DNA from: a virus | Strand: one strand, 5' to 3' | Virus record (IMG/VR): IMGVR_UViG_3300019768_000010 | Span: 1 to 41,825 of that record | DNA length: 41,825 bases | Part shown: in pieces, positions 1 to 39,180 of the stretch | How positions within the stretch are numbered: the stretch's first letter is position 1 | How the letters are laid out: each line of letters opens with the position of its first letter | The notes under the pieces: generated by a model | What the model was told of the DNA's origin: nothing | Database searches by the model: none | The model's input: only the letters and a program-made list of their open reading frames with translations | Program-made: the position numbers and the translations under genes

Positions 1-14
1 GTCGTACTTAAGAG

Positions 15-829: not shown

Positions 830-1047
830 AAATTATTATTAATATCTTTAAATTTGTTGTAAATATTTTGCAGCTTATCATCGGTCTGATGTTTTTATGG
901 CTTGGTATTGCGGGGCTTGTTATAGCTTCTTATGAAACCTTTCCTCTATCTAAAACTGCACTTTATTTATCTAGTGCATTAGGCTGGTTATTTGGTGGCG
1001 CAATGATCATAGTCCACTTGCTTAGAAAGTTTTCAAATAAAAAATAA
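826..1047 (+). CDS. Small two-pass membrane protein
   Basis: A 73-residue protein starting at GTG, overlapping the terS stop as GTGA and preceded by a strong ribosome site (GGGAGGGG). Two hydrophobic helices are clear, about residues 8-33 and 45-66, joined by a short polar loop and followed by a basic tail (RKFSNKK), which predicts a small inner-membrane hairpin with cytoplasmic ends. No family was recognised. A membrane protein inside a terminase operon is odd; holin-like or superinfection-exclusion roles are possible but unsupported. The actual lysis cassette lies at 18.4-19.3 kb. Confidence 0.7.
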   Translation: MKIIINIFKFVVNILQLIIGLMFLWLGIAGLVIASYETFPLSKTALYLSSALGWLFGGAMIIVHLLRKFSNKK

Positions 1048-1055
1048 AAAAGTAT

Positions 1056-1084
1056 TTGACTTTTAATAGAAAATCATGTAGTTT
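1056..1084 (+). promoter_or_regulatory. Weak promoter before tRNA-like element
   Basis: TTGACT at 1056-1061 and TAGTTT at 1079-1084 are separated by 17 bp. The -35 box is good and the -10 box is poor, although the sequence just downstream is very AT-rich. It would read into the tRNA-like element that begins about 29 bases further on. Confidence 0.35.
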
Positions 1085-1112
1085 AATAATTGTTGATAGA
1101 CACTTGCTTTAT

Positions 1113-1177
1113 AGCTCTCTAGTTTAACGACAGAATGCTAGGCTAATTTAGTTATTGGTTCGAATCCGATAAGGGCT
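1113..1177 (+). tRNA. Degenerate tRNA-like element
   Basis: The 3' half is a textbook T arm: ATTGG (1154-1158), loop TTCGAAT, CCGAT (1166-1170), then AAGGGCT (1171-1177), which pairs with AGCTCTC at 1113-1119 as an acceptor stem with one G-T wobble and one C-A mismatch. A D-arm-like GTTT/GAAT stem with a 7-base loop follows TA at positions 8-9. The anticodon arm is wrong: only CTA/TAG pairs around an 8-base loop, and the whole element is about 65 nt instead of 72-76. It is best read as a decayed tRNA, or a host-tRNA-derived attachment remnant. No anticodon can be assigned. Confidence 0.4.
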
Positions 1178-1230
1178 TTTTTGTTTCTTCTACACACTTA
1201 CGATCTCCCGTTTGATATCTCATCCAGACT

Positions 1231-1265
1231 AGGGCTAGTTTAACTCCTTTACTAGCCCTTTTCTG
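1231..1265 (+). terminator. Factor-independent terminator after terS unit
   Basis: AGGGCTAGT (1231-1239) pairs with ACTAGCCCT (1251-1259) over nine base pairs with an 11-base loop, followed by a short T-rich tail. The tail is imperfect (TTT then C), so efficiency may be moderate. It separates terS from the terL promoter. Confidence 0.55.
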
Positions 1266-1285
1266 TGTCCAAAATCCCTTACTTC

Positions 1286-1314
1286 TTGACAATTTTCCTT
1301 TAAAATGCTATTAT
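1286..1314 (+). promoter_or_regulatory. Sigma70-type promoter for terL
   Basis: TTGACA at 1286-1291 and TATTAT at 1309-1314 with an ideal 17-bp spacer: a perfect -35 and a 5/6 -10 box. Transcription would start near 1321, about 24 bases before the terL ATG. Confidence 0.75.
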
Positions 1315-1344
1315 TTATAATAAAATACGTAAAAATGGTTAAAA

Positions 1345-3054
1345 ATGGAAGAAAATGATAAAAAGTATGAAAATATGCATCCTGTTGATGAATATGCCCA
1401 AAAAGTAATAGATGGTGTGATTCCTTCGTGTCAATTTGTTATCCAAGCGTGCGAAAGACATATAAGAGACCTTGAAAGGGATGATATTTGGTTCGATTAT
1501 GATCATGCTGAGTATGTATGTGATTATTTCCCTGTTATGTTGACCTTGACCAAAGGTAAAGATGCTAACAAGCCTTTTGTACTAGAACTGTGGCAGAAAT
1601 TTATTGTTGGCTCGTTGTTCGGATGGAAGAAGAAAGGTTCTGATTTGCGAAGATACAAGACAGCACATATAGAGATACCTAAGAAAAATGGTAAGACTGA
1701 ATTAATGGCTGGCATAGCTCTATATATGCTGGAAGCTGATGGTGAGGCTGGTGCTGAGGTGTATTCTGGTGCGACTGGGCGAGACCAAGCATCTATCGTT
1801 TGGGACGCATCAAAGGTTATGGTTAAAAAGAACAAGGAATGGTTCGATTCTAGCTACCTCCGAATAGTTGCCACTAGTAAAAGCATTGTTCATGATGAAT
1901 CCAATTCCCTTTTTCGTCCTCTCTCGGCTGATGCCAACACTCTTGACGGTAAAAACGTACATTGTGCTATTATTGATGAATTACACCAGCATAAAACAGC
2001 AGAAGTTTATGATACGATTCTTAACGGTCGTGTTTCCCGAACCCAGCCAATGGGTATTTCTATTACCACGGCAGGTGACGACAAATATTCTATTGCTTAT
2101 GAAATAAGAGATTATGTGACAAAGATACTTGACGGTGTACTCGAAGATGATTCTTTTTTTGGTATAATATTTACTATAGATGAAAAAGATGATTGGATGG
2201 ATGAGTCAAATCATATCAAGGCTAATCCTAATTGGAATGTTAGTGTTTTTGAAGAATTTATTTCGGATCAATTTAAAAAAGCAACGCAAATACCTACTTT
2301 CCAAAACGTTTTTAAGAGGTTTCATTTAAACCAGTGGACGGATTCAACTACAGCATGGATTTCGGATGGAAAATGGAGTAAATGCGATAAAGGACAGGTC
2401 GACTTGTCTAGTCTTAAACATAAACGCTGCTTCGTTGGGATGGATTTATCATCTACCTCTGACATCACAGCGATAGTGTGTATGTTTATGCCCGAGGAAG
2501 AAAAAGAAGATTGGATTATGATCCCTTATTTTTTCGTACCAGCCCATACATTAACAGAAAGGTCAAAAGAAGATAAAGTGCCTTATGATATATGGGAAAA
2601 GGACGGCTTTTTATTCAAAACAGAAGGTGATACCATTGATTATCGTCAAATAAGGGAATTTATATTGGACGATTTAGCTTTAAAGTATAATATAGAGGAA
2701 ATAGACTATGACAGATACCATTCAACCGCACTTATTAATGAGCTAATGGATAATGGGATAGAGTGTGTACCTATAGCCCAATCTATTACGCAAATGTCAG
2801 CTCCTACGAAAGAGTTGGAGAGATTGGTTCTCAGTAATGAGTTGAATCATATGGGTAACCCTGTTATGCGATGGATGATGAGTAATGTTGAGATTTACAC
2901 AGACGCTAATGAGAATTACAAGCCAGTGAAAGGGCGTAACCAGAAAAAAAGAATTGATGGCGTTATAGCTTCTATTATGGCACTAGCTAGAGGTATGATA
3001 GTAAGGGAAGAACAGAAAAGTATTTATGAGGAAAGAGGTTTGTTAATATTATGA
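1345..3054 (+). CDS. terL: Terminase large subunit (ATPase and nuclease)
   Basis: Motor ATPase and DNA-cutting nuclease of head packaging; 569 residues, normal for the Terminase_1 group found with HK97-type heads. The ATPase domain shows a Walker A variant IPKKNGKTEL at 111-120, Walker B CAIIDELH at 207-214 with catalytic Glu, and a coupling motif SITTAG at 239-244. The RNase H-like nuclease shows its first acidic residue in GMDLSSTSD (D367), a second in EEIDYDRYHS (D454 or D456) and the last in KKRIDGVIAS (D538). It has its own promoter. The ribosome site before the ATG is weak, so initiation on a short A-rich leader is likely. No truncation is seen. Confidence 0.96.
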   Translation: MEENDKKYENMHPVDEYAQKVIDGVIPSCQFVIQACERHIRDLERDDIWFDYDHAEYVCDYFPVMLTLTKGKDANKPFVLELWQKFIVGSLFGWKKKGSDLRRYKTAHIEIPKKNGKTELMAGIALYMLEADGEAGAEVYSGATGRDQASIVWDASKVMVKKNKEWFDSSYLRIVATSKSIVHDESNSLFRPLSADANTLDGKNVHCAIIDELHQHKTAEVYDTILNGRVSRTQPMGISITTAGDDKYSIAYEIRDYVTKILDGVLEDDSFFGIIFTIDEKDDWMDESNHIKANPNWNVSVFEEFISDQFKKATQIPTFQNVFKRFHLNQWTDSTTAWISDGKWSKCDKGQVDLSSLKHKRCFVGMDLSSTSDITAIVCMFMPEEEKEDWIMIPYFFVPAHTLTERSKEDKVPYDIWEKDGFLFKTEGDTIDYRQIREFILDDLALKYNIEEIDYDRYHSTALINELMDNGIECVPIAQSITQMSAPTKELERLVLSNELNHMGNPVMRWMMSNVEIYTDANENYKPVKGRNQKKRIDGVIASIMALARGMIVREEQKSIYEERGLLIL

Positions 3055-3203
3055 GTTGAGGTTAGGAAATTTAACCCTAGACAAGAAAGGAAAGACAAAA
3101 CTGCCTCTCCTCTCTGTGTCGGGGTGTTTTAATGGGGGGGGGTGCTAGTACAATAGCCAATTTACACAATTAAGTCAAGTCTTTTATCTTTTTTTTATTC
3201 AAA

Positions 3204-4085
3204 TTAATCCACCACATGCCCCTGAATTATTGCTTCGCCTATTTCCATGTCTGTCAAATCGTCCTGTACTATCAGTTGTATTTGGTCTCCTGTTTCTCCC
3301 TGACTTCCCAGTCTAATAGATACACCATTCTTTTCCTGTCCATTAAAAGTCCTTCTGCCATGAACCGCATACAATCCTGTTTTAGAGGCAGGTACGTAGA
3401 TCAAATCCCCACCGCATCTTTGCCTTAATGCTCCATTTGTTTTTACATTAAATACATTTTTGGTTACCCCGTTAACCGTTCGCAGAACCAATCCTTTATT
3501 AATAGCTGGTATTGTGCCAAAAGAGGTGTCGTCTGGTTGCGGGTCTGAGACTTCCCCTGTTCCAGCAAAGCTTATCATTATTCTGTTTATATCCCACTTT
3601 GTTCCAAATGCTAACTTGGCAGGTGTCACAGCGAAAACAACAGGCGTAGTACTTCCGTCTACAGCTAAATTAGTATTAGTTAGCGAGCAACCATCATCTA
3701 TCCCAAATGCGAAATCTAGCGGGGTATCCAACTTTATTCTATATTGATTAGCACCTAAGTTTGTAACTTCCAAAGGAGTACCTTGGTAAAAAGCGACACC
3801 ATCTAAATCTTTCAGACAGATAGTATCGTTCAGTGTAGGCGTAACACCTGTGGTTTCAACATCTATAGTTGTGTCATTGACAGAATAATTATTCAAAAGA
3901 GTCAAATCATCCAGTTTCGTAGCCATCTTTAAATCTATAATCTCAGTGAACTGATCTTGGATAGCAACCTGCACATTCCCTCTGCTATCGTAAAATTCAT
4001 AAACCTCATCGTTAGCCAAAACAACAGTGCTAGACCTCGGAACATATTTTTGAGCCAAACCACTTATTTTCTTTATAAATCCCAT
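3204..4085 (-). CDS. Inverted structural-like protein between terL and portal
   Basis: A 293-residue, beta-rich, Thr/Asp/Asn-rich protein on the minus strand inside an otherwise plus-strand head block. No signal peptide, membrane segment or catalytic motif is visible. The C-terminal third (GRRTFNGQEKNGVSIRLG followed by QIQLIVQDDLTDMEIGEAIIQGH) resembles a domain I associate with uncharacterised virion or tail-associated phage proteins, but I cannot name a family. The ATG has a very strong ribosome site (AAGGTGATCA) and a dedicated divergent promoter (4110-4137). Its composition matches its neighbours, so it is not obviously a recent import. It may be a separately regulated virion decoration or receptor-related protein (inference). 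Confidence 0.85.
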   Translation of the reverse strand: MGFIKKISGLAQKYVPRSSTVVLANDEVYEFYDSRGNVQVAIQDQFTEIIDLKMATKLDDLTLLNNYSVNDTTIDVETTGVTPTLNDTICLKDLDGVAFYQGTPLEVTNLGANQYRIKLDTPLDFAFGIDDGCSLTNTNLAVDGSTTPVVFAVTPAKLAFGTKWDINRIMISFAGTGEVSDPQPDDTSFGTIPAINKGLVLRTVNGVTKNVFNVKTNGALRQRCGGDLIYVPASKTGLYAVHGRRTFNGQEKNGVSIRLGSQGETGDQIQLIVQDDLTDMEIGEAIIQGHVVD

Positions 4086-4109
4086 TGATCACCTTTTCTT
4101 TTTTCTTTA

Positions 4110-4137
4110 AATATAGATTTAATAATAAAAAAAACAA
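4110..4137 (-). promoter_or_regulatory. Divergent promoter for the inverted gene
   Basis: Read on the minus strand: TTGTTT (4137-4132), 16-bp spacer, TATATT (4115-4110). The start site would lie about 20 bases upstream of the ribosome site of the 3204-4085 gene. It is back to back with the portal promoter at 4147-4174. Confidence 0.55.
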
Positions 4138-4146
4138 TATTTATCC

Positions 4147-4174
4147 TTGACTTACATTAAAAACATACTATTTT
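4147..4174 (+). promoter_or_regulatory. Promoter for the portal-protease-capsid unit
   Basis: TTGACT (4147-4152) and TATTTT (4169-4174) with a 16-bp spacer. It lies 58 bases upstream of the likely TTG start of portal. Together with the promoter at 4110-4137 it forms a divergent pair in a 131-base AT-rich gap. Confidence 0.6.
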
Positions 4175-4231
4175 ACTTCACATAAGCAACGCAAATCATT
4201 AACAACATAATATAAAATGAAGGGTGATTTT

Positions 4232-5515
4232 TTGGGTATATTTAATTTTTTCAAAAAAGATAAGTCTGCTAAAAATGAGACCTATTTCGATAAACAAGGA
4301 AATATAGTCTATCTGGGTGATTCCGATATAGTCACAACCCCTGCTCAGGCTCTTCAAATTTCGGCAGTGTATGCCTGTGTTCGTGTTATTTCTGAAAATA
4401 TTTCTACTACGCCTTTAGACTTATACAAAAAAGCATCAGATGGTAGCAGAGAGAAGCAGGATAACGGTTTATCTTACCTCTTACGTTATAAGCCAAACGC
4501 AGTCCAATCAATTTCGCAACTATTAGCATATATCACATCATCAATAGTTCTGCGTGGTGGTGGTTTCATAAAAGTAAACCGAAAAGTATCAGGCGAAATA
4601 CACTCATTGGTCTCGTTAAATCCTGACGATATAGAGGTAATAGTTGAGCAAACCACCAATTTTAGACTGGTTAAACAGTATAAGTATAATTCACCAGATG
4701 GCAAACAAGTTATCCTCAACCAGAGAGACGTTATTCATATACCAAACCTTGTATCAACCGATGGTTATTGTGGTCTATCAACTATTTCTGCTTTTAGAGA
4801 GACTTTTGGTTCAGGTCTAGCACAGGTTGAGCATGAAAACAAATTCTATTCAAATGGTGCTAAATACAACGGTATTCTTCAAATGGATGGGAAGCTTTCT
4901 GACGCAGGAATAACAAAGCTCAAGAAGCAGTTTAAAGAAGAGTATGGTGGTAAAAACGGTAATGGTAAAACTCTCGTTTTGGAAGAAGGGTTGACATTTT
5001 CCCCCCTAACCATGTCTCACTCTGACGCTCAATTCATAGAGTCAAGACGTTTTACTACAGAGGATATAGCTCGTGTTTTTAACGTACCACCTCATATGAT
5101 ACAGGATTTATCAAGGGCTACTTTTTCTAACATAGAGGAACAGTCTATTAACTTTGTGAGATATACATTGCAGCCATATTTTGTAAATATAGAACAGCAA
5201 TTTATGAATATACTCCTAACTCCTGAGGATATTGATGCAGGTTATTTCCTAGAATTCAATACACGCAACCAGCTCCGCTCTACTCTCGAAAAAAGATATG
5301 ATGCTTATTCTAAAGCTATTGATAAAGGATGGATGCAACCTAACGAAGCAAGAGAGCTTGAAAACCTCAAAAAGCTTGATGGTCTTAGTAATTCTTTCAT
5401 CCAGTTAAACATGGGTAAAATTGATGAAGATGGGAATGTTATTTCTCATTTGAATACCGAGAACACCATCGAAGCAGGAAACACAGACAGTCCAACAGAG
5501 GATAATAATGAATAA
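4232..5515 (+). CDS. Portal protein, HK97 gp3 family
   Basis: Dodecameric ring at the head vertex through which DNA enters and leaves. The open frame runs from an ATG at 4217, but that ATG has no ribosome site, whereas AAGGGTGAT sits just before an in-frame TTG at 4232 giving the typical portal N-terminus MGIFNFFKK; I chose the TTG (427 residues). Family features: ALQISAVYACVRVISENIS near residues 40-60, a VLRGGGFIKVNR strand, a DVIHIPN turn, the YSNGAKYNG crown region, the EDIARVFNVPPHMIQDL segment, and an acidic disordered C-terminus. The stop overlaps the protease start by 8 bases. Confidence 0.94.
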   Translation: MGIFNFFKKDKSAKNETYFDKQGNIVYLGDSDIVTTPAQALQISAVYACVRVISENISTTPLDLYKKASDGSREKQDNGLSYLLRYKPNAVQSISQLLAYITSSIVLRGGGFIKVNRKVSGEIHSLVSLNPDDIEVIVEQTTNFRLVKQYKYNSPDGKQVILNQRDVIHIPNLVSTDGYCGLSTISAFRETFGSGLAQVEHENKFYSNGAKYNGILQMDGKLSDAGITKLKKQFKEEYGGKNGNGKTLVLEEGLTFSPLTMSHSDAQFIESRRFTTEDIARVFNVPPHMIQDLSRATFSNIEEQSINFVRYTLQPYFVNIEQQFMNILLTPEDIDAGYFLEFNTRNQLRSTLEKRYDAYSKAIDKGWMQPNEARELENLKKLDGLSNSFIQLNMGKIDEDGNVISHLNTENTIEAGNTDSPTEDNNE

Positions 5516-6296
5516 AGAAAAAACCGAAAAAAGAAATTGGTTCAGTATTAAAAATACCGCTGATATTGCGACAATAAATATCTATGATGATATTGGTGGA
5601 TGGGGTGTGACTGGCGAAGACTTCGTGTATGCCCTCAAATCCTTAGCCTCCTATCCTATGGTGGATATCCGCATTAATTCTGGCGGTGGGTATGTTTCTG
5701 ACGGTCTAGTGATATATAATGCACTTCGTCAGTCAAAACAAACCATTCGAGTGTTCGTGGATGGCATTTGTGCTTCATCTGCATCTTTTTTAGCAATGGG
5801 TGCTGACCAAATACTGATGCCGAAAACATCCTTTATGATGATCCATAATGCATCTGGTTCTGTTTATGGTGACGCTAACGATATGGAGCAAATGGCAGAA
5901 TTTCTCAAGCAAAACACCGATTTAATCGCAGGTATCTACGCAGAAAGAACCAAGATAGATATAGAAGAAATTAAAGAACTAATGAGTGCTGAAACTTGGT
6001 TCACGGGTGAACAGGCAGTGGATAAAGGTTTTGCTGATGAATTAACAGATGTTCAAGAGATTACCAACCGTCTTGATTTATCAGTATTTAACAAAGTACC
6101 AGACTTGGCAAAGGAAAAATATTGTGTATTAGGGGAAGAGTGCGATGAAGCTACTAGTATAGAAAATAAAGAAAAGCAAGAAAAGGAAGAAAGTAAGGAA
6201 GAGCCAGAGCAAGAGTTCACACCGATGTGTTCTACTGAAAGGCTTAAAATGGAATTAGACTTGACAGAAAAAGAACTTAAATTGTCTGTCGACTAA
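5508..6296 (+). CDS. Prohead protease, ClpP-like serine protease
   Basis: Head-maturation protease (262 residues) that probably trims the N-terminal scaffolding arm of the capsid protein. The ClpP fold is clear: oxyanion strand INSGGGYVSDG at 56-66, nucleophile Ser90 in GICASSASFLA, catalytic His113 in MMIHNASG, and the AETWFTGEQAVDKGFADE helix at 161-178. After about residue 215 a Lys/Glu-rich low-complexity tail (EKQEKEESKEEPEQE) leads to a final helix, perhaps the capsid-docking part. It overlaps portal by 8 bases. Order and class fit HK97-like heads whose protease is ClpP-type rather than U35. Confidence 0.93.
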   Translation: MNKEKTEKRNWFSIKNTADIATINIYDDIGGWGVTGEDFVYALKSLASYPMVDIRINSGGGYVSDGLVIYNALRQSKQTIRVFVDGICASSASFLAMGADQILMPKTSFMMIHNASGSVYGDANDMEQMAEFLKQNTDLIAGIYAERTKIDIEEIKELMSAETWFTGEQAVDKGFADELTDVQEITNRLDLSVFNKVPDLAKEKYCVLGEECDEATSIENKEKQEKEESKEEPEQEFTPMCSTERLKMELDLTEKELKLSVD

Positions 6297-6315
6297 AAAT
6301 AAAGAGGTAAATAAT

Positions 6316-7548
6316 ATGAGTACAATTAAAATCGAAGAACTCAAGAAACTAGCTAGTCAGCCTCTCGCAGAAGCTAGAGAAATTCTTGATGCACACAGCG
6401 GTGATATACCAGCTGACCGAAAAGAAGCATATGATAAATTAATGGATGCTCACGTCAAAGCTAAAAGCAATCTTGACACCTATGTCGAGAACGCTAAGGC
6501 TACAGCGGACATGGAGTCTTACGAATCTCTCAATTTTGGAGATGATGGCAATGTGACAGTATCTAGCCACAGCAAGAAAGCACCTGAAAACAAATACGCT
6601 TCTGCTGAGTATAAAGAAGCTTTTGCTTCGTATCTCCTCGGTGGTAGTGCTGATTCTCTCAAGGCTATCAATGGCTCAACAGTATCCAACGACCCTAATG
6701 CTGGTTATCTTTCAGAAGCAGATTTCAGCTCTGAGTACATCAAGCAAGTTGATGACGCAACTGTTTTCCGTGGAATGGCTAGAATCTTTAGAGTCAATAA
6801 CTACAAAGGTATTGGCTTCCCAGAACTCAAAATAGAAGCTTCTGCTGAATGGGGTGGAGAGGTTACAAAGCAACCTGAAACATCGGTGGGATTTGGACGC
6901 AGATCACTTAAGCCTCACGATGTAAAAGCCAAGCTTAAAGCATCTGAGACTCTTCTTCGCAACACAACCAATTTTCAGGGTGATATCATCATCCCTCAAC
7001 TTGCGAAGGCTCACGCTGAGTTGACAGAGAATGCTTTTATGAATGGTGATGGAGTCAATAAGCCACTTGGTGTTTTCGCAGCGTCAGACGAAGGTATTTC
7101 TACAAATAGAGATATCGAATCATCTACATCAGGTGAAATTGATATGGACGTTCTCAGGGAGATGGTAACAGGAATTAAATCACCTTATCTTGTGAACGCT
7201 AAATACCTTATGCATAGACTCGTATATCGTGAAATTGCAAACCTTAAAAACTCAGAAGGTAATTATTACGTAAATATGATGGGTGCTAGAGATGATATTT
7301 TCGGTAACCTCAACGGCTACGGAATCACTCTTTCTGAATATGCTCCATCATCAGTCACTGCTGGTACTTACGCAGCTATTTTCGGTGATTTCTCGAACTA
7401 TTGGATACAAGAAGCTCTTGCCCCAAGCATAAGAGTTCTTGACCAGCTTTACGCAGAAACAAACCAGATTGGTTACATATCTAATTCACAAGTAGATGGT
7501 GCGCCAATGCTAGAAGAAGCTTTTATCAGACTTAAAATCAAGGCATAA
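6316..7548 (+). CDS. Major capsid protein, HK97 gp5 fold
   Basis: Shell protein of 410 residues, with ribosome site AGAGG. Residues 1-66 form a charged helical, coiled-coil arm, the usual scaffolding (delta) domain removed by the protease encoded just upstream. The capsid fold begins near the SNDPNAGYLSEADFSSEYIK segment at 124-143, followed by the E-loop-like strands around FPELKIEAS and the conserved NGDGVNKPLGVF turn near 243-254, then the DVLREMVTGI helix and a C-terminal strand. The exact cleavage site cannot be read from sequence. Coding bias and a strong ribosome site fit very high expression. Confidence 0.94.
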   Translation: MSTIKIEELKKLASQPLAEAREILDAHSGDIPADRKEAYDKLMDAHVKAKSNLDTYVENAKATADMESYESLNFGDDGNVTVSSHSKKAPENKYASAEYKEAFASYLLGGSADSLKAINGSTVSNDPNAGYLSEADFSSEYIKQVDDATVFRGMARIFRVNNYKGIGFPELKIEASAEWGGEVTKQPETSVGFGRRSLKPHDVKAKLKASETLLRNTTNFQGDIIIPQLAKAHAELTENAFMNGDGVNKPLGVFAASDEGISTNRDIESSTSGEIDMDVLREMVTGIKSPYLVNAKYLMHRLVYREIANLKNSEGNYYVNMMGARDDIFGNLNGYGITLSEYAPSSVTAGTYAAIFGDFSNYWIQEALAPSIRVLDQLYAETNQIGYISNSQVDGAPMLEEAFIRLKIKA

Positions 7549-7560
7549 GGAGTATAAATA

Positions 7561-8004
7561 ATGCAAACAATTAACGATACAAAAATAATCAGAGTGGCAA
7601 ATTCTCAAGTTGCTGGAACAACAGCGGTAAACAGTTCTCTTGTTTCCACTGCTAACGCTAAGTCATTTGAATTTGACGCTATCTTCGGTGATGTAACAGA
7701 TGCATCCGTACTTGGTCTAAAAATCCAAGGTGGCGAAGAAAGTAACGGTTCTGATATGGCTGATCTTACAGGTGCTTCTGTTAGTTTTACAGCTGATGCA
7801 ACTTCTGGTGATAATAAAATTCTCAGAATCGCTATCGAAAGACCGCTTAACACATATCTTCGTGCTGTAGTGACTAGAACAGTTGCTAATGCTGTTGTAG
7901 ATGGCGTTATCTGTCTAGTTTCAGATGGCAGAAGTGTTCCAGTAACGGACGATGCTTCTGTAGTTGGTAATGGTGGAGCTATAGCAAGTCCTAGCCAAGT
8001 ATAA
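7561..8004 (+). CDS. Probable head decoration or fibre protein
   Basis: A 147-residue protein dominated by small and polar residues with predicted beta strands and no membrane segment. Strong ribosome site AAGGAGT, 12 bases after the capsid gene. The pattern of an N-terminal strand, a SFEFDAIFGDVTDASVLGLKIQ core, and a second sheet ending in LRAVVTRTV matches a class of small beta proteins often encoded right after the major capsid gene and thought to decorate the shell. Position and composition drive the call; a minor head or tail protein remains possible. Confidence 0.65.
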   Translation: MQTINDTKIIRVANSQVAGTTAVNSSLVSTANAKSFEFDAIFGDVTDASVLGLKIQGGEESNGSDMADLTGASVSFTADATSGDNKILRIAIERPLNTYLRAVVTRTVANAVVDGVICLVSDGRSVPVTDDASVVGNGGAIASPSQV

Positions 8005-8009
8005 ATAAT

Positions 8010-8036
8010 CTAGGGGTGGTTCTCTAGTGTTTTTTA
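8010..8036 (+). terminator. Weak terminator after decoration gene
   Basis: CTAGGG (8010-8015) pairs with CTCTAG (8022-8027) with one G-T pair, a 6-base loop, then TGTTTTTT. The stem is short, so it may only attenuate, lowering expression of the downstream connector genes relative to the capsid genes. Confidence 0.4.
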
Positions 8037-8067
8037 GCCTCATCAGTCATCCTCCGTTGGTGGGGCT
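8036..8067 (+). other. Ten-base-pair hairpin in capsid-connector gap
   Basis: AGCCTCATCA (8036-8045) can pair with TGGTGGGGCT (8058-8067) over ten positions including two G-T wobbles, with a 12-base loop. No T tract follows, so it is not a classical terminator. It starts on the last T run of the preceding weak terminator and could be an mRNA end-protecting structure or processing site. Confidence 0.4.
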
Positions 8068-8102
8068 TGTAAGAAACTAGACAAGAAAAAAAAGAGGTTG
8101 GT

Positions 8103-8345
8103 ATGAAAAGATACAAAGTTTTAATGAAAGCAACAGTCCCTTCACCTGAAAAATGTTTTGAAAAAGGCAAGGAGTATTTTTTTGATGAAAAAAAAGCCAG
8201 AGCGTGGGAATCTCAAGACCTTTGCAGTATCATTCAAGAAGAAGCGACAAGTGAAAAACAGATTAATAAAGGAAGCACTGGAAAAGCTAAACAAGGTAAA
8301 AAAAATACTATCCATGGTAATAAAGAAAAAAAAGAGAGTAAGTGA
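8103..8345 (+). CDS. Small head-region protein with lysine-rich tail
   Basis: An 80-residue protein. The N-terminal half (MKRYKVLMKATV, then KGKEYFFDEKKARAWE) resembles the small domain proteins often found between the capsid and connector genes, with a KVL strand and an EYFFDEKKA helix start. The C-terminal 35 residues are low complexity and strongly basic (Lys/Gly/Asn), suggesting nucleic-acid contact or disorder. Ribosome site AGAGG; its TGA overlaps the next ATG (TGATG). A second open frame inside it (8158-8367) is equally Lys-rich but lacks coupling and is taken as a shadow. Confidence 0.65.
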   Translation: MKRYKVLMKATVPSPEKCFEKGKEYFFDEKKARAWESQDLCSIIQEEATSEKQINKGSTGKAKQGKKNTIHGNKEKKESK

Positions 8346-8929
8346 TGTTATTGCAAAGAACCGTTGACCCATCAATAGAACCTGTAACTTTGGAAGAAGC
8401 TAAATTACACTTGCGTGTTGATGGAACAGAAGAGGACAGTTTAATATCCATTCTTATTCAACTAGGTAGAGAGTATGTGGAGACTTATACGGGCAGACCT
8501 CTTATCACTCAATCATGGAAAATGATACTAGACGGTTTTTACTCGCCTATGCAGCTCTACAAACTACCAATACAAGAAGTTGTATCTGTTACATATGCTG
8601 ATACTGCTGGTGACGTGCAAACCCTATCCACAGATATATATAAAACAGTCTTTACCGATTATGATTCCTACATAGAAGTAAAAGATGGGCAATCATTCCC
8701 TGAGACTTTATCAGAATCAGCAGTTGTTGAAATAAACACGACCGCTGGCTATGGACTTACCGCTGATACAGTACCAGCAGGTTTGAAAAACGCCATCCTT
8801 CTTTTGGTTGGTTCTTATTATCAAAATAGGGAAACTATTTACTTTGCGTCTATAGGCACGGTGGCTGACCTGCCTCGGTCGATAGCAATAGATACGCTAC
8901 TAAATAACTATAAATTACCGAGGGTATAA
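8345..8929 (+). CDS. Head-tail connector, HK97 gp6 family
   Basis: Forms the ring attached below the portal. The 194 residues match the gp6/phage connector pattern: PVTLEEAKLHLRVDGTEEDSLI at the N-terminus, the REYVETYTGRPLITQSW helix-turn, central strands with LPIQEVVSVTY, and a C-terminal helix (AGLKNAILLLVGSYYQNRE) before the DLPRSIAIDTLLNNYKLPRV tail. I prefer the ATG at 8345, which overlaps the upstream TGA, to the in-frame GTG at 8342. The stop overlaps the next start as TAATG, so the connector genes are tightly coupled. Confidence 0.92.
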   Translation: MLLQRTVDPSIEPVTLEEAKLHLRVDGTEEDSLISILIQLGREYVETYTGRPLITQSWKMILDGFYSPMQLYKLPIQEVVSVTYADTAGDVQTLSTDIYKTVFTDYDSYIEVKDGQSFPETLSESAVVEINTTAGYGLTADTVPAGLKNAILLLVGSYYQNRETIYFASIGTVADLPRSIAIDTLLNNYKLPRV

Positions 8930-22267: not shown

Positions 22268-22479
22268 AATTCAACCTCTATTTTTATCATGTCAATAACC
22301 CATTCCCGACCGACAGGGTGTTTTGATTCAATATCTTCCGCTAGTTTGTCAACAGAGTCTTGAATCTTGTCTTTTATTTCGTCATAAACAACGACGCATT
22401 CGTCGGGGTGGCGATGCCCGTTACCAAAGAGGCATTCGCCGTCTTTTCTCTCATTCTTGCATCCGTTACCGTAACACAT
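22264..22479 (-). CDS. Small Cys/His protein
   Basis: A 71-residue protein starting at ATG 22479, which overlaps the upstream TGA (TGATG). The N-terminal 30 residues have four Cys and two His (CYGNGCKNERKDGECLFGNG then HRHPDEC), spaced like a compact zinc knuckle; the C-terminal half is an amphipathic helix. It follows the beta-helix pair and may work with it, but this is only positional. Confidence 0.65.
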   Translation of the reverse strand: MCYGNGCKNERKDGECLFGNGHRHPDECVVVYDEIKDKIQDSVDKLAEDIESKHPVGREWVIDMIKIEVEL

Positions 22480-23339
22480 CAACTCATCTCCATCATAGCT
22501 TTCATCTTCGGGTAAGCTTCCAATCTTAACTTACCTTGTTCACTACCCTCTGGAAACTCTTCATCTTTGTTCCAAAAAACATTATCCCATTCTTCAATTG
22601 TTCGTGTGAAACATCCTATTTGAACGTATTTAATACCTGTTCTGTCATCTGCGAAACCAGATAAACTATACTTATATTCGTTAAAGAGATGGACGATTTT
22701 TGTTATCATTACACCTTCGGCAACCTTCGCACGAAGGAGTAAAGTTACATTATGACCGATGCTCACATCATCACCAATAGTTACAGAATTACCGATAGTT
22801 ACATCATCACCTATAATTACATCTTCACCGATAGTTACGTTCTGATGTATAGTTACAGAATCACCGATAGTTACATTCTTACCAATAGTTACAGAATTGC
22901 TGATATTTACAGAATCATCGATATCTGCATCACCGCCGATAATTGCAGAATCACCAATATTTATGTTCTCGCATATATTTACATTTTGACCTATATTTAC
23001 AAATTTACCGATAGTTACACACTTGTCGATAACAACCCATTTACCGATAGCTACATTTTTATATATAGTTACACCATCACCGATATCTGCAAAACCACCT
23101 ATAATTACAGAATTACCAATAATTGCAAAATCACCTATAGTTACATCATTGCCTATAATTACATTGTCACCTATATCTGCAAAGTCATCAATAGTTGCAC
23201 GCTCGCCGATAATGATATCGTCACCGATATCTGCAAAGTCACCAATAGTTATATCATACTTTTCCGCTTCTTCCCTAAGCTCGTTAATATCATTCCACTC
23301 AAACTTTTCTTTCTTACTACCTAGATATGTCGTTTTCAT
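22479..23339 (-). CDS. Hexapeptide-repeat left-handed beta-helix protein 2
   Basis: A 286-residue protein. After a 28-residue N-terminal cap (MKTTYLGSKKEKFEWNDINE) comes a run of about 29 six-residue repeats of the form IGDxVT or IGDFAD (residues about 28-205), which fold as a left-handed parallel beta-helix. The C-terminal 80 residues (KYVQIGCFTRTIEEWDNVFW, then EEFPEG) match a domain I recognise on uncharacterised phage proteins with this helix. No acyl- or acetyltransferase catalytic loop is apparent, so an enzyme role is doubtful. The ATG at 23339 follows AAAGG; the in-frame GTG at 23345 is less likely. It is a tandem paralogue of the upstream gene. Confidence 0.85.
   Translation of the reverse strand: MKTTYLGSKKEKFEWNDINELREEAEKYDITIGDFADIGDDIIIGERATIDDFADIGDNVIIGNDVTIGDFAIIGNSVIIGGFADIGDGVTIYKNVAIGKWVVIDKCVTIGKFVNIGQNVNICENINIGDSAIIGGDADIDDSVNISNSVTIGKNVTIGDSVTIHQNVTIGEDVIIGDDVTIGNSVTIGDDVSIGHNVTLLLRAKVAEGVMITKIVHLFNEYKYSLSGFADDRTGIKYVQIGCFTRTIEEWDNVFWNKDEEFPEGSEQGKLRLEAYPKMKAMMEMS
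22750..23265 (-). repeat. 18-bp degenerate tandem repeat array (gene 2)
   Basis: Six-codon (18-bp) units coding for the IGDxVT hexapeptide run through the beta-helix part of the gene; the recurring plus-strand form is ACATCATCACCGATAGTT with variation mainly at the two or three coil-outside codons. The near-identity of many units suggests expansion by slippage or unequal recombination. Both reverse-complement frames stay open, which creates long spurious ORFs on the plus strand. Confidence 0.85.
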
Positions 23340-23341
23340 TT

Positions 23342-23827
23342 TCACACCTTTTTTTTTGTTACGTTCTTATATATATTTACAGAATCACTGATAGTCACAC
23401 CATCATCGATAACTACACCATCACCGATAGTTACATCTTCACCGATAGTTACATTCTTACCAATAGTTACAAAGTCACCAATAGTTGCAAAGTCACCAAT
23501 AGTTGCATTGGTGTAGATATCTGTCCAATTACCGATAGTTACTTCATCACCGATATTTACAAATTTACCGATAGTTACAGAATCACCGATAACTGCACCA
23601 TTACCAATAATTGCAGAATCACATATAATTGCAAATTTACCCATAGTTGCATGATCACCAATAGTTACATTGGTGTAGATATCTGTCCAATTACCGATAG
23701 TTATTTTATCACCGATAATTACAGACTTACCGATATTTATATTATACTTTTTCGCTTCTTTTCTAAGCTCACTGATAGCTTCCCACTCAAACTTTTCTCT
23801 CTTTCGACCTAGATATGTTACTTTCAT
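23342..23827 (-). CDS. Hexapeptide-repeat beta-helix protein 1 (short paralogue)
   Basis: A 161-residue protein, first gene of its unit, with the strongest ribosome site of the pair (GGAGG, 7 bases before ATG 23827). The N-terminal cap (MKVTYLGRKREKFEWEAISE) is nearly the same as in its downstream paralogue, followed by about 21 hexapeptide repeats including two copies of the IGNWTDIYTN unit. It lacks the paralogue's C-terminal 80-residue domain and ends in VTKKKV over a run of nine A. Its stop lies next to the start of gene 2, so the pair looks like a partial tandem duplication. Confidence 0.82.
   Translation of the reverse strand: MKVTYLGRKREKFEWEAISELRKEAKKYNINIGKSVIIGDKITIGNWTDIYTNVTIGDHATMGKFAIICDSAIIGNGAVIGDSVTIGKFVNIGDEVTIGNWTDIYTNATIGDFATIGDFVTIGKNVTIGEDVTIGDGVVIDDGVTISDSVNIYKNVTKKKV
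23380..23745 (-). repeat. 18-bp degenerate tandem repeat array (gene 1)
   Basis: The same 18-bp coding repeat as in 22750-23265. A larger duplicated block is visible inside it: the segment coding GNWTDIYTN occurs at about 23510-23535 and 23670-23695, suggesting a secondary internal duplication of about 160 bp. Confidence 0.8.
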
Positions 23828-23856
23828 TTTCACACCTCCGTTCTTGACTGTGATTA

Positions 23857-25914: not shown

Positions 25915-26427
25915 CTAACCTTTATTTTTTTTATAAAACTTGATAGCTCTATCAACCGCCCACCTCTCACAAGCTGACCTGTCCTTGTTCATATATACAT
26001 GGAAACCTCTGAGTTCCCATGAAACAATAAATTGACGTGCGACCTCAGGGGATACCTTAGAAAACCTAGACCCTCTTAATATTTCTGATTCATCACAATC
26101 AATAACAAGCCCGACAAAGCCACCATTTTTGACTATATCTTGAAACTCAGTCATTTTTCTATCAGTTTTAAGGACTCTTTCTTTTCCGATATATGAATAA
26201 AAATCACTCATTTGTTTTCTTTCTATACAGAAAGTTTCTTCCATTCCTTTTATAGTGTAATCACCTTTTCGAACAGTGTCCACTATGTGAGGAACATCAA
26301 CTAGAGGGTAAGGCTTTTGCTCCCTAGTATCAACTATCATTTCAAAACCGTCAGGGATTATAAAAGGCTTCAATTTTCTTCTGACAGTCCTTTTTCTAGT
26401 AGAAGTTCGGCTGTTACCTATCGCCAT
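25915..26427 (-). CDS. ERCC4/XPF-type nuclease
   Basis: A 170-residue stand-alone ERCC4 nuclease. The signature is complete: VDTREQKPYPL at 32-42, GDYTI at 55-59 and IERKQMSDFYSYI at 68-80 (the ERK-x3-D core), followed by an LVIDCDES strand. The N-terminus is basic (RTSTRKRTVRRKLK). In phages such proteins are taken to act as branched-DNA resolvases. Its ATG lies inside the end of the upstream gene (10-base overlap). Confidence 0.92.
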   Translation of the reverse strand: MAIGNSRTSTRKRTVRRKLKPFIIPDGFEMIVDTREQKPYPLVDVPHIVDTVRKGDYTIKGMEETFCIERKQMSDFYSYIGKERVLKTDRKMTEFQDIVKNGGFVGLVIDCDESEILRGSRFSKVSPEVARQFIVSWELRGFHVYMNKDRSACERWAVDRAIKFYKKNKG

Positions 26428-29735: not shown

Positions 29736-30607
29736 TTCCTTATCCTTCTTAATTCCCTATTTGCATAGTGGATTATCTTATTTAAATCTCTTTCGTATGT
29801 AGTCCCTGCATGTCTCTTGGTATTCAAACACCAGATAGCTTTGACCATATTGCCTTGGTTAAAATTCATCCCTCGATGCTCGATAAAATCATCTGCATCT
29901 TTGATATTGTTTGGAAGCTGGTAGTAATCGGTTTTGCCTCCGTTATTCAAACTGCTATCTTCATGTTCTTTATCAGTTATTGGCGTTGGTTTAGGTTGAA
30001 CTTCTTCTTTGGCTTCTGGCTCGGATATAACGTCTACAAAATCGCTATGCCACGCCCAGCATTCATCTGAGCTAGTTTTGTAGTAGTCTTTATAACCATC
30101 AAAAATGTCTGGAAATTCCCTACCTGCATGTTCCCACATCGACTCGAAGAAAAGGGGAGAAGAATGTGAATCTTCCCCCTTTTTAACCCCAAGTGTTTTT
30201 TCTAGTTCCTCAACACTTTTAACTCTGATTCTGACACCTTTACTCATTTCGTCACCTTCCACCAACTGTCTAGCCAGACTCTCATATTCCTTTACCACAT
30301 AATCCAAATCTCTAAAAACCTCAGAACCATCATTCAGAAATAATTCAGCCATTATCGGGTTGGAAAAATAACTTTTATCACCAGCATGTCCACAATCAAA
30401 GCCTATTCTCCAATCTGTTTCATCTATAAATCTGCCAGTGAATGTCACACCACCATGAACCATAAAATCGTCAAGAAACCCATCTTTACCGTAAAGAGGA
30501 TGTGTCTCAGGGATAATAACATATCCGCAATAAACACCTGTCCTTTCTCTAAAAATAGCTTCCGCTTCTAAACCTGCTTCCGTTTTCCATTTACGGTTTT
30601 CCATCAT
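29732..30607 (-). CDS. Two-domain protein with DUF3310-like C-terminus
   Basis: A 291-residue protein. Residues about 15-80 contain GVYCGYVIIPETHPLYGKDG and a later VHGGVTFTG and GFDCGHAGD, a domain seen in uncharacterised phage proteins. After a charged linker, residues 225-290 (YYQLPNNIKDADDFIEH, then GNMVKAIWCLNTKRHAG, then DLNKIIHYANREL) match the DUF3310 pattern, of unknown function and often near nucleotide or DNA metabolism genes. The fusion of both in one chain is noteworthy. The ATG follows GGAGGTGG and overlaps the helicase stop. Confidence 0.78.
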   Translation of the reverse strand: MMENRKWKTEAGLEAEAIFRERTGVYCGYVIIPETHPLYGKDGFLDDFMVHGGVTFTGRFIDETDWRIGFDCGHAGDKSYFSNPIMAELFLNDGSEVFRDLDYVVKEYESLARQLVEGDEMSKGVRIRVKSVEELEKTLGVKKGEDSHSSPLFFESMWEHAGREFPDIFDGYKDYYKTSSDECWAWHSDFVDVISEPEAKEEVQPKPTPITDKEHEDSSLNNGGKTDYYQLPNNIKDADDFIEHRGMNFNQGNMVKAIWCLNTKRHAGTTYERDLNKIIHYANRELRRIRK

Positions 30608-32193
30608 TTAACCACCTCCTTACCTTCCATCATCCACTTAGGAAAATTTTTACTATTCATCATCCTTCGTGCATCGGTGTCTAGCACGTAAACACTAGCA
30701 TAATCTCTCACACTACGAATCCCACGACCCATCATCTGAATCATCTCTTGAACAGCTAATTCACTATACCATTGTTTTCCGAATTGTCCAGAATAAAAAC
30801 GGCTTTGAATTAACTTATCCCCTAGATACCCATACGGTACTTTAGGTATGACGATAAATCTGCACAAATCATCAGGTAAATCAACACCCCTTGACGAGCT
30901 AGGTGAGAAAAAAACTAGTGACTTGTTACTCGATTTAAACATCTCCAACCTCTCCACTTTATTACTACCCTGTTCATGCAGAAAACATCTCTTTCTGTAC
31001 CCCTTGCCAAGAGAATTATATATATCACTCTGTAATTTAAAACTAACAGTATGAACAATGCCTTTTTCATCAGGATGTTTATCAAATATTTCCTCTATAC
31101 TCCTCACCACTTTAGGTAAGCTCTCCCCTTGGTTCTTCTTGCCCATACTTCCCTTATACATGCAGTATATCGGTCGATTCTCGACAGGCACGTCACTACT
31201 CGTCTTTGCATAAGCTGTATCATCTTTATCAATGCCTATCAGCCCACAGAAAACCTCCTTGCTAGGTAAGCTGCCCGACATAAATACAAATTTCTTCCCG
31301 AGCCTACCCATTATTTGCTGAAAAAGATTTCTACTCATCCATAGAGGCTTAAACTCATATCTATCCTGTTTATCTTCAAACAGCCAGCTTTTATTAACGT
31401 TCTTCGCTAGAAAATCCAGTTTCCATAGCAACCCTGTATATCTCTTGGCATGACTAATCCATTCTTTAGTGTCCTCAACCAAGCCCTTGTTTAGTAAGAC
31501 TATACTCATTTCAGTGTCAATAAACGTATCGACACTCTCCAATGTTTCCTCAGCCCATTTCTTCCATATACCCTCAATATCCTTCGCTTGGTTACTTACC
31601 CTGCTGGGCTTAGTCAAACCTAACTCTGTTAACACGCTCTTGGATATATCTATTGTCACAAAACCAGTGAGTTTTTCTTCCAAAACATCAGCTTCATCAC
31701 AAACTATTAAATCGTAAGAGCCTTTTGAGTTTTTAAGCTGTTTATCAAATTCATCTGTCAGGTTACCCATTGTTAAAAAGAAATCATAATTCATAACCTG
31801 AATATCTTTTTTAAATAAAACCCTTTTTGCTTTTTGATATTCGCACTCATATCTACTACAACAAGGCATATCTGCTGTATGCAGACACTCCGAACAATCC
31901 CCTCCGTGTTCCATGCACACGTAATTTCGTCTACCTTTGATTTTCCCGACATTTGAAAACTCCTCGTGCAATTGGTCTTGGAGTTGTATAGATGAGCAGA
32001 GATATGCGGTTTTGCCTGTTAAAAGACCTAATGTAACACCTAGTACGCTTTTCCCTGATCCTGTCGGCATTTGGTAGACTATGTTTTTCTTATCCGTGTT
32101 TCTTGTAAACAAATCCACAGCTTTTAATTGTTTTTCTCTGGGCGTTTTCCCATCTAAGCCTTGGAATCCCGACCATAGTTTATTGTAATCCAT
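30604..32193 (-). CDS. DinG/XPD-like FeS helicase
   Basis: A 529-residue superfamily 2 helicase. Walker A PTGSGKS at 43-49, then a Cys cluster (C93, C100, C103, C111/112, C117) where XPD/DinG proteins bind an FeS cluster, DEAD box at 166-169, a SSSRGVDLPDD strand with the motif V region and QMMGRGIRSVRD (motif VI) at 486-497. The size and cluster fit DinG-type 5'-3' helicases. It likely unwinds R-loops, forks or recombination intermediates during phage replication. Ribosome site GGGGAA. Intact. Confidence 0.92.
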   Translation of the reverse strand: MDYNKLWSGFQGLDGKTPREKQLKAVDLFTRNTDKKNIVYQMPTGSGKSVLGVTLGLLTGKTAYLCSSIQLQDQLHEEFSNVGKIKGRRNYVCMEHGGDCSECLHTADMPCCSRYECEYQKAKRVLFKKDIQVMNYDFFLTMGNLTDEFDKQLKNSKGSYDLIVCDEADVLEEKLTGFVTIDISKSVLTELGLTKPSRVSNQAKDIEGIWKKWAEETLESVDTFIDTEMSIVLLNKGLVEDTKEWISHAKRYTGLLWKLDFLAKNVNKSWLFEDKQDRYEFKPLWMSRNLFQQIMGRLGKKFVFMSGSLPSKEVFCGLIGIDKDDTAYAKTSSDVPVENRPIYCMYKGSMGKKNQGESLPKVVRSIEEIFDKHPDEKGIVHTVSFKLQSDIYNSLGKGYRKRCFLHEQGSNKVERLEMFKSSNKSLVFFSPSSSRGVDLPDDLCRFIVIPKVPYGYLGDKLIQSRFYSGQFGKQWYSELAVQEMIQMMGRGIRSVRDYASVYVLDTDARRMMNSKNFPKWMMEGKEVVK

Positions 32194-37255: not shown

Positions 37256-37897
37256 TCATGACTTCACCATCCCAAACCTTTTAGCTCTGTACTCAGTCCT
37301 AAAAAACAGTTGCTCTCTTCCACCAATCGAATATAAACACCCTGAATTACTGACAGTAAATATGATACCATAGTGTTTTATAATATACGAATACGGCTTC
37401 GTGGCATCTACAATAGCAAACTCCAAAGGGAGACCCAAGCTGTCAATACTGTATACATTATCCCACTTTTCCATACCTTCTAGCTCTTTAGCAAGTCTAA
37501 GACTGGTCAACTCATGTGTTTTATAGTTAACACTATCGTACCCGTTAACTTTAAACATATGATGATTTTCTGATGGGGATTCTAAATAGTCAAGATATTC
37601 GTCAGACTCTTCCCTGTAGTATACACACCCCTCCTTCAGTTTTATACATCCAGCAACCTCAACTTCTATGTCAACCCAGCCTTGTTTTTTTGCTACGTCT
37701 AGGTGAAAGAGTGAGCGTCTGGTACATGATACAGAAACCCCTTGTGCTGTAAAATGTGCTTTGGGGTCTTCATCAAAAGCACATATCACAGAGTAATCAT
37801 CCCAAGAAATACGAAGAACAACTCCATCTCCCTCTTTCATAGTCCAGACTGCATCACCAACCTTAAACGGTCTTTCCTTAATCACTTTCTTGCTCAC
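37256..37897 (-). CDS. Hypothetical protein with SH3/KOW-like start
   Basis: A 213-residue protein. The GTG at 37897 is chosen because AAAGGAGG precedes it at a proper distance, and the promoter -10 box overlaps the upstream ATG region (37942), which rules that start out. The first 40 residues (RPFKVGDAVWTMKEGDGVVLRISWD) resemble a small SH3-like barrel. The remainder is soluble alpha/beta with a final basic YRAKRFGMVK. First gene of the methyltransferase unit. Function unknown. Confidence 0.72.
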   Translation of the reverse strand: MSKKVIKERPFKVGDAVWTMKEGDGVVLRISWDDYSVICAFDEDPKAHFTAQGVSVSCTRRSLFHLDVAKKQGWVDIEVEVAGCIKLKEGCVYYREESDEYLDYLESPSENHHMFKVNGYDSVNYKTHELTSLRLAKELEGMEKWDNVYSIDSLGLPLEFAIVDATKPYSYIIKHYGIIFTVSNSGCLYSIGGREQLFFRTEYRAKRFGMVKS

Positions 37898-37927
37898 CTT
37901 ATAGCCTCCTTTATTTCCATTTGACCA

Positions 37928-37955
37928 ATCATACCACGCCACAAACCAATGTCAA
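37928..37955 (-). promoter_or_regulatory. Leftward promoter for the methyltransferase unit
   Basis: On the minus strand: TTGACA (37955-37950), 16-bp spacer, TATGAT (37933-37928) with extended -10 TGG. Direct repeats at 38011-38048 lie 56-93 bases upstream of the -35 box and may control it. Confidence 0.8.
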
Positions 37956-38010
37956 TAAAAAACAACGCCTAACACCAGAAAAAATAATCCTAGGACTCCA
38001 TTAAATAACA

Positions 38011-38048
38011 CGCAGGACTATGTTTGAAAAAGGCGCAGGACTATGTTT
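38011..38048. repeat. 15-bp perfect direct repeat pair
   Basis: CGCAGGACTATGTTT occurs at 38011-38025 and 38034-38048, a start-to-start distance of 23 bp (about two helical turns). A partial copy (AGGACT) lies near 37992. The pair lies upstream of the leftward promoter at 37928-37955, so it may be an operator or activator site. Confidence 0.8.
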
Positions 38049-38313
38049 CGTACTGGATAGCACGTATAATAAACAAAAATGAAATAAAATAGAAAAAAAG
38101 TGAAAAAAATAAAATAAATATTTAGACAAAAAACAAGGTGAGAGACAAACAAAATAACGCCCTGCTAATAATATAACATATAATATTATATTAATCAATA
38201 AAAAACTGAAAAAACACCAAATTATTTTTAAAACACTGTTCTACGAAAAACGTTATTTTCACTTTTTTTTCCTTATAACTTGCTAATAATAAAAAGGAAT
38301 CTCGGATTATTTT

Positions 38314-38363
38314 TTTTTGTGTACATGTAAATCGTTTTTTTTCCATTTACATGTACACAAAAA
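38314..38363. repeat. Perfect 19-bp inverted repeat
   Basis: TTTTTGTGTACATGTAAAT (38314-38332) is exactly reverse-complementary to 38345-38363, with a 12-base pyrimidine-rich loop. Each arm also contains TGTACA, itself a palindrome. It lacks a GC-rich stem, so it looks like a cruciform or protein-binding site rather than a terminator. Confidence 0.9.
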
Positions 38364-38374
38364 TGTCGACATTT
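38361..38374. repeat. 14-bp perfect palindrome
   Basis: AAATGTCGACATTT, touching the right arm of the larger inverted repeat and centred on a SalI-type GTCGAC. It is a likely dimeric protein binding site. Confidence 0.75.
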
Positions 38375-38476
38375 CAAAAACGCTTTAATCACAATAACTT
38401 ACAAGATAATTTTTGCGAAAAAAAGAAATTTGCTAGAACAACGTTTTATTATGAAACCAATGAAAAACTCCTACCC

Positions 38477-38504
38477 TTGACAAAACCAAAAAATTTATTA
38501 TATT
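38477..38504 (+). promoter_or_regulatory. Rightward promoter towards the iterons
   Basis: TTGACA (38477-38482), 16-bp spacer, TATATT (38499-38504). It is flanked by CCTTGA and TCAAGG arms. No convincing gene lies just downstream; the transcript would cross the iteron array, as an origin primer or small RNA might. Confidence 0.6.
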
Positions 38505-38619
38505 CAAGGTATCGCCTGCTGAGAGAGATATGTTTCAAAAAAACTGTTTACTCTCTTAAAATTATCTGCTACAATTTGCTTTGCCCGCCGAGAGAAAAAC
38601 CCCTTTGAAAACATTCAGA

Positions 38620-38676
38620 CTATCGGCTAGCCATCGCCACAGTATCGGCGAACTATCGGCTGGACTATCGGCTAGG
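38620..38676. repeat. Iteron-like array of five 11-12 bp repeats
   Basis: Consensus CTATCGGCTAG. The TATCGG core starts at 38621, 38643, 38654 and 38666, with a degenerate copy (CATCGC) at 38632, so spacing is 11, 11, 11 and 12 bp, one helical turn. The array is GC-rich against very AT-rich flanks and is bordered by CCGAGAGA elements near 38588 and 38681. Confidence 0.85.
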
Positions 38677-38919
38677 CTTCCCGAGAGAGATAGATATATA
38701 CAGAGAAACAGACGATTATATTTTTTTCTATGCGAAAGTATATAGATACACGTATATTCATACATAATAACACATGTAATATTTTTATTTTTTTTGTTCA
38801 ATCCAATTGCATTATAGACTATATTAAATTTGTCGATTCTTTTCGGAGGTGGAGGCTTGTTTTTATGGTTCAGCTCAGAGGTGTATTACAGGGCGTAAGG
38901 ATTGCATAATATCAGGCGT

Positions 38920-38942
38920 AAAAAAACCAGCGTTTAAACTGG
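38920..38942 (-). terminator. Leftward terminator after 38974 gene
   Basis: On the minus strand CCAGT and GCTGG (38942-38938 with 38931-38927) form a 5-bp stem including one wobble pair with a 6-base loop, followed by seven T. It lies 32 bases beyond the stop of the 38974-39180 gene. Confidence 0.6.
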
Positions 38943-38973
38943 GCTGCGTGCATAGTATTTTATGTGGTACAAC

Positions 38974-39180
38974 TTATTTAAATAATCTCTTTGCTATTTT
39001 TCCTTTTGTTCGGCTTTCTGCGTCTTTTTCGACTGCGTCTATTATATTTTGTAGTTCGTCAATGCCAGCCTGTGAGCTAAATAATGGATTGCTTTCATCT
39101 GGTAGGTATGGCATAGCACCACCATGCTTATTATCAACTTGTATACTTCCCTTGTGGTATGTTATCTTGTAATTGCTCAT
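38974..39180 (-). CDS. Small monocistronic hypothetical protein
   Basis: A 68-residue protein with a very strong ribosome site (AAGGAGG). It starts with two strands (NYKITYHKGSIQVDN), then a loop with PYLPDESNPLF and a basic helix at the end (DELQNIIDAVEKDAESRTKG). It has its own promoter (39214-39241) and terminator (38920-38942), so it is expressed alone next to the origin-like region. It could bind DNA or regulate replication, which is only positional. Confidence 0.7.
   Translation of the reverse strand: MSNYKITYHKGSIQVDNKHGGAMPYLPDESNPLFSSQAGIDELQNIIDAVEKDAESRTKGKIAKRLFK

Follow-up and report, generated by a model that had tools for sequence, protein, structure and literature searches.

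A candidate iteron-type replication origin in the longest non-coding gap of an unclassified tailed phage

The locus described here raises the question of what a sigma-70-type promoter does when it reads across helically phased short repeats and leads to no recognisable gene. The window analysed is the whole of IMG/VR record IMGVR_UViG_3300019768_000010 (41,825 bp). The promoter-plus-repeat arrangement, noted in a preliminary description of this DNA, is real; the array site is likewise real and, to judge from its sequence, probably functional. Positions 38477–38833 are proposed to form a cis-acting, protein-bound control region, most likely the iteron-type replication origin of the phage (probability about 0.4).

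The contig is that of a tailed bacterial phage and is unclassified. Its rightward genes encode a terminase, a portal, a ClpP-like protease and an HK97-type capsid, and its leftward half encodes a Rad3/DinG-like helicase, a Sak4-like AAA protein, PD-(D/E)XK and other nucleases, a C5 DNA methylase and many further products without a recognised family. An archaeal virus, considered on account of the Rad3-like helicase and weak ERCC4 and Hjc matches, is ruled out by the canonical sigma-70 promoters and strong ribosome-binding (Shine-Dalgarno) sites that precede the genes; thus, the bacterial promoter consensus is the right yardstick for this DNA. The weak ERCC4 (XPF-like) nuclease domain (25915–26427, minus strand) and the Rad3/DinG-like helicase (Helicase_C_2; 30604–32193, minus strand) make up a repair-like pair within one phage. 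Odd for an early phage region are two ORFs at 22479–23833 (minus strand) in which 18-bp repeats, arranged in long runs, encode hexapeptide (left-handed beta-helix) repeats; the one scanned matches Pfam Hexapep, and the two are possibly a single split gene.

Relatives were sought in viral contigs (with three proteins), in genome contigs (with the terminase) and by blastn/tblastn against phages and plasmids. The record is without a near relative in these collections, and none of them holds a close relative that covers the gap. The only relatives found are terminases of at most about 42% identity and contig L047 (IMGVR_UViG_3300019759_000041), which is 100% identical to positions 1–8585 (8.6 kb, the left end) and ends there. 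L047 begins at exactly base 1 of the contig, and this common start may mark a physical end of the genome, or both assemblies may break at the same point.

The repeats lie in a gap inside the leftward early cluster, for which the following features frame the setting:

37898–38973, no strand: non-coding gap of 1,076 bp, the longest of the contig (gap list)
37955–37928, minus strand: strong leftward promoter TTGACA-16-TATGAT with TG (sequence scan)
38011–38048, plus strand: two exact 15-bp CGCAGGACTATGTTT direct repeats, 23 bp apart, 56–93 bp upstream of the -35 box of the leftward promoter
38942–38927, minus strand: terminator-like hairpin 3' of gene 38974–39180 (sequence scan)

The gap parts a leftward monocistronic gene with a terminator (38974–39180) from a leftward operon with a strong promoter. 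Its left limit, 37898, depends on starting the leftward gene 37256–37897 at GTG 37897, which is preceded by the ribosome site AAAGGAGGCTATAAG. The start regions of both flanking genes (37897 and 39180, minus strand) are near-identical (AAAGGAGGCTWTRARRTGAGCAA). The hairpin at 38927–38942 would keep leftward transcription from entering the gap. The CGCAGGACTATGTTT pair, a pattern absent from the viral contigs scanned, provides possible activator or regulator sites for the leftward promoter.

Rightward transcription signals are found in the right half of the gap:

38477–38504, plus strand: P1, sigma-70-type promoter TTGACA-16-TATATT, 11/12 consensus bases
38547–38575, plus strand: P2, weaker promoter TTTACT-17-TGcTACAAT with an extended -10, 9/12, TG present
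38865–38909, plus strand: 14-codon ATG ORF MVQLRGVLQGVRIA with a strong GGAGG ribosome-binding site, downstream of P1/P2

Nine sites in the whole contig, P1 included, score at least 11/12, and three of the other eight sit 31–37 bp upstream of a same-strand gene; thus, such a score marks likely promoters in this contig. The array begins 116 bp past the P1 -10 box, in agreement with the roughly 115 bp first reported, while P2, which lies between P1 and the array, was absent from that account. The statement that the transcript has no clear ORF holds overall, with the exception of the previously unmentioned 14-codon ORF, which may be a leader peptide or chance.

The array itself is laid out as follows:

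38620–38675, plus strand: five phased 11-bp units (iterons), spaced 11, 11, 11 and 12 bp
38620, plus strand: unit CTATCGGCTAG, core (TATCG/CATCG) at 38621
38631, plus strand: unit CCATCGCCACA, core at 38632
38642, plus strand: unit GTATCGGCGAA, core at 38643
38653, plus strand: unit CTATCGGCTGG, core at 38654
38665, plus strand: unit CTATCGGCTAG, core at 38666

CTATCGGCTRG is matched exactly by three units (two CTATCGGCTAG and one CTATCGGCTGG), while the remaining two are degenerate, with 6/11 and 8/11 matches counted by eye. The preliminary description was therefore right about five helically phased units but not about five CTATCGGCTAG copies, as only three units are good. A five-unit chain of such 7-mers at 10–13 bp spacing occurs in none of 300 Markov sequences of 320 bp, where the simulated maximum is three. 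The direct repeats are thus in helical phase, as in iteron origins.

Beside the promoters and the array are further repeats, some of which resemble the unit in reverse:

38514–38530, plus strand: GCCTGCTGAGAGAGATA, 17-bp element copy 1, beginning 10 bp after the P1 -10 box
38583–38599, plus strand: GCCCGCCGAGAGAAAAA, 17-bp element copy 2, beginning 8 bp after the P2 -10 box
38676–38692, plus strand: GCTTCCCGAGAGAGATA, 17-bp element copy 3, closing the array
38509–38525, no strand: GTATCGCCTGCTGAGAG in the P1 start region, a weak forward unit (9.1) overlapping a weak inverted unit (7.4) in a PWM scan

The GAGAGAGATA elements (GAGAGA) are part of this 17-bp family, with its three copies at 38514, 38583 and 38676. 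Flanking repeats were earlier taken as a sign of a designed site; the three copies do exist but are weaker evidence than the array, as 3 of 150 simulations reach three-copy families. The complement of copy 2 (CTCTCGGCGGG) closely resembles the iteron (score 11.8) in a PWM scan with the unit, which ranks copy 2 sixth among all sites of the contig. The complement of GCCGAGAG is CTCTCGGC, one base off the unit CTATCGGC. Reverse-oriented sites may therefore be present at both promoters, although scores are low for the copies that follow P1 and the array. The GTATCGCCTGCTGAGAG unit matches are also weak and could be chance.

Phased direct repeats together with nearby AT-rich, easily melted DNA are the standard anatomy of iteron origins (PMC5043065). 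In the gap, the AT-rich component and other elements are:

38714–38833, no strand: AT-rich, easily melted stretch, candidate unwinding element, 20% GC, seventh least stable 120-bp stretch of the contig
38083–38202, no strand: second easily melted stretch, 18% GC, third least stable of the contig
38314–38363, no strand: perfect 19-bp inverted repeat TTTTTGTGTACATGTAAAT with a 12-nt loop (repeat search)

The stretch at 38714–38833 lies beside the repeats, as expected of an unwinding element. The inverted repeat is not a terminator on either strand, since no T run follows the stem, and its pattern is absent from the viral contigs scanned. The gap (37898–38973) contains no DnaA box with one mismatch or fewer; such a box is not obligatory for phage origins such as that of lambda. 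Near the right contig end, 41673–41787 comprises very AT-rich, imperfect 32-bp tandem repeats in which the stability of the contig is lowest (10% GC); melting could alternatively take place there.

Strand composition is compatible with replication starting in the right-hand part of the contig. At fourfold-degenerate sites, the plus strand of rightward genes is C-rich (GC skew -0.10, CI -0.17 to -0.02), and the leftward genes have a coding-strand skew of +0.11 (CI 0.01 to 0.21), which again means a C-rich plus strand (stratified odds ratio 1.49, gene-bootstrap interval 1.05–2.00). The lone leftward gene within the rightward cluster agrees, with 25 G and 12 C. Thus, the bias is independent of transcription direction and, provided that the leading strand is G-rich as it commonly is, hints at forks that go left over most of the contig. 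As the overall GC skew has no turn at 38.5 kb and only 32 informative fourfold sites lie right of the gap, skew cannot place the origin.

The protein complement bears on how such an origin might be served. The phage encodes replication-type proteins (the helicase, the Sak4-like protein and nucleases), whereas no DNA polymerase is found among the proteins scanned, which implies that the host replisome is used at a phage-specified site. The proteins scanned include no known initiator family (Rep, O or similar) and no recognised DNA-binding family; proteins of the leftward cluster without a recognised family could include a novel initiator. The 68-aa protein of 38974–39180, put forward earlier as the binder, does not bear out that role: it matches no RHH or HTH family, has no informative relative, and its low-confidence model (pLDDT 65, pTM 0.32) has no Foldseek match. 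The model of the 37256–37897 protein is uninformative (pLDDT 34).

In the proposed mechanism, a putative phage (or host) protein would bind the five phased units on one helix face and perhaps also the weaker copies in reverse orientation next to the two promoters and the array end. The bound protein would wrap the DNA and help to open the AT-rich stretch at 38714–38833, where the phage helicase and the host replisome would load. Rightward transcription from P1/P2 may activate the region by local unwinding or, alternatively, the bound protein may shut these transcripts down.

An operator array would account for the sequence features nearly as well as an origin. Here, a phage regulator would bind the units and the reverse copies to repress or activate P1/P2 (or the leftward early promoter at 37955–37928), with no role in replication. 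The 17-bp GCCYGCYGAGAGA copies 10 bp and 8 bp past the P1 and P2 -10 boxes are in the usual operator position, the complement of these elements is a near copy of the iteron unit, and the gap parts a terminator-ended leftward gene from a strong-promoter leftward operon. However, P1/P2 lead to no recognisable gene, just the 14-codon ORF, and so there is little to regulate; the 17-bp family is not strong alone, given its recurrence in simulations; and palindromes are more usual in phage operators than phased direct repeats. An array of operators with no part in replication is possible but somewhat unlikely.

A variant of the origin reading extends it to a lineage without known initiators, in which a phage protein on short 11-bp phased units, placed in both orientations around two tandem promoters, would couple transcription of an untranslated RNA to leftward replication. 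As a specific scheme this is unlikely.

The RNA itself may instead be considered as the functional product, and was the favourite of the preliminary description. Lactococcal c2-type phages have an ori that is flanked by two early promoters and gives rise to the non-coding transcript PE1-T (PMC7150918), and RNA-based prophage origins exist in mycobacteriophages (PMC7157519). With these precedents, a non-coding P1 transcript that crosses the repeats could be processed to a primer: the promoter sequence is present, followed within the intergenic gap by a stretch that has only the 14-codon ORF with its ribosome site. By contrast, a rightward RNA primes a rightward leading strand, the wrong direction if forks go left as the fourfold-site skew modestly suggests, the predicted transcripts fold near background (z -0.5 to -2.0 versus shuffles), and the mechanism needs no phased DNA repeats. 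Similarity to the ori of c2, bIL67 or 923 is not found; blastn against 50,697 phage records returns only weak short matches (about 29–44 bases), and the Lactococcus matches among those listed lie in holin genes. A primer-RNA origin is therefore improbable.

A regulatory or structured RNA, or an antisense RNA into gene 38974–39180, made from P1 or P2, is still less credible. The region is GC-richer than its flanks (45–53% versus 20–34%), and no rightward terminator is found between P1/P2 and the leftward gene, such that antisense overlap would be possible. A structured RNA is nonetheless disfavoured by the folding statistics; no Rfam model matches anywhere in the contig at the gathering score, and even a cutoff relaxed to E = 10 brings up no match at the repeats. 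The 11–12 bp register is moreover a periodicity of DNA, not RNA. Together, these results make an array of protein-binding DNA sites more likely than a functional RNA. Thus, the designed, origin-like site of the preliminary description remains plausible (by its phased repeats, adjacent AT-rich stretch, location in the longest gap and strand composition), whereas its primer or regulatory RNA is unsupported.

The array may also be viewed as a functionless leftover of local tandem duplication, a reading with a very slim chance of being correct. TATCGGC triples at 10–11 bp spacing have 37 matches in 2.9 million viral contigs, compared to 42 for a composition-matched scrambled 7-mer, suggesting that any sequence gives rise to short tandem arrays. 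Against this, units 1, 4 and 5, which match best, do not all sit side by side; the core is preserved across differing spacers; and the array falls in the longest gap together with promoters and reverse copies. The same counts, with no gene common to this phage and the contigs with TATCGGC triples, reject the triple as a family-wide motif; it defines no family and gives no evidence of a wider array family.

A centromere-like partition site of the parC type, with the phage kept as a plasmid, is scarcely credible and largely refuted: runs of 10–11 bp direct repeats beside a promoter are the anatomy of ParR-bound parC (e.g., the 10-bp repeats of pSK41, PMC4911067), yet parC sites adjoin par genes, the proteins scanned include no ParM, ParA, ParB, ParR or TubZ family, no recognisable partition gene is near the array, and no RHH or HTH family is recognised in the 68-aa protein, the nearest one.

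If the region is the origin, as preferred here, it supplies a phage that has no near relative in the searched collections with a mapped replication start and candidate sites for its initiator, and points to an initiator beyond the reach of profile searches; if it is an operator array only, it is routine.

Plasmid iterons are about 17–22 bp, and the iterons of lambda lie within the O gene. Like the iteron plasmid origins of P1, RK2, F and pSC101, the array combines phased direct repeats with an AT-rich, easily melted stretch (PMC5043065); it differs in its short 11-bp units and in having no recognisable Rep gene beside it and no DnaA box. The lambda ori similarly has an array of repeated initiator sites with AT-rich DNA alongside, but its iterons, which are bound by O dimers, are inverted repeats (PMC5043065), whereas here shorter, direct units occupy a non-coding gap and no relative of O or P is found. 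With the c2 (Ceduovirus) ori, the site shares a non-coding gap, two promoters and a presumed non-coding transcript (PMC7150918). The c2 ori, however, is flanked by PE1 and PE2 and separates the early from the late cluster, while here both promoters are on one side of the array, the leftward early cluster encloses the gap and phased iterons dominate. The parC centromeres of R1 and pSK41 likewise have phased 10–11 bp direct repeats beside a promoter, but here recognisable partition genes are lacking. Thus, apart from its short units and the absence of a recognised initiator, the site resembles known kinds, and by itself it leaves the general picture unaltered.
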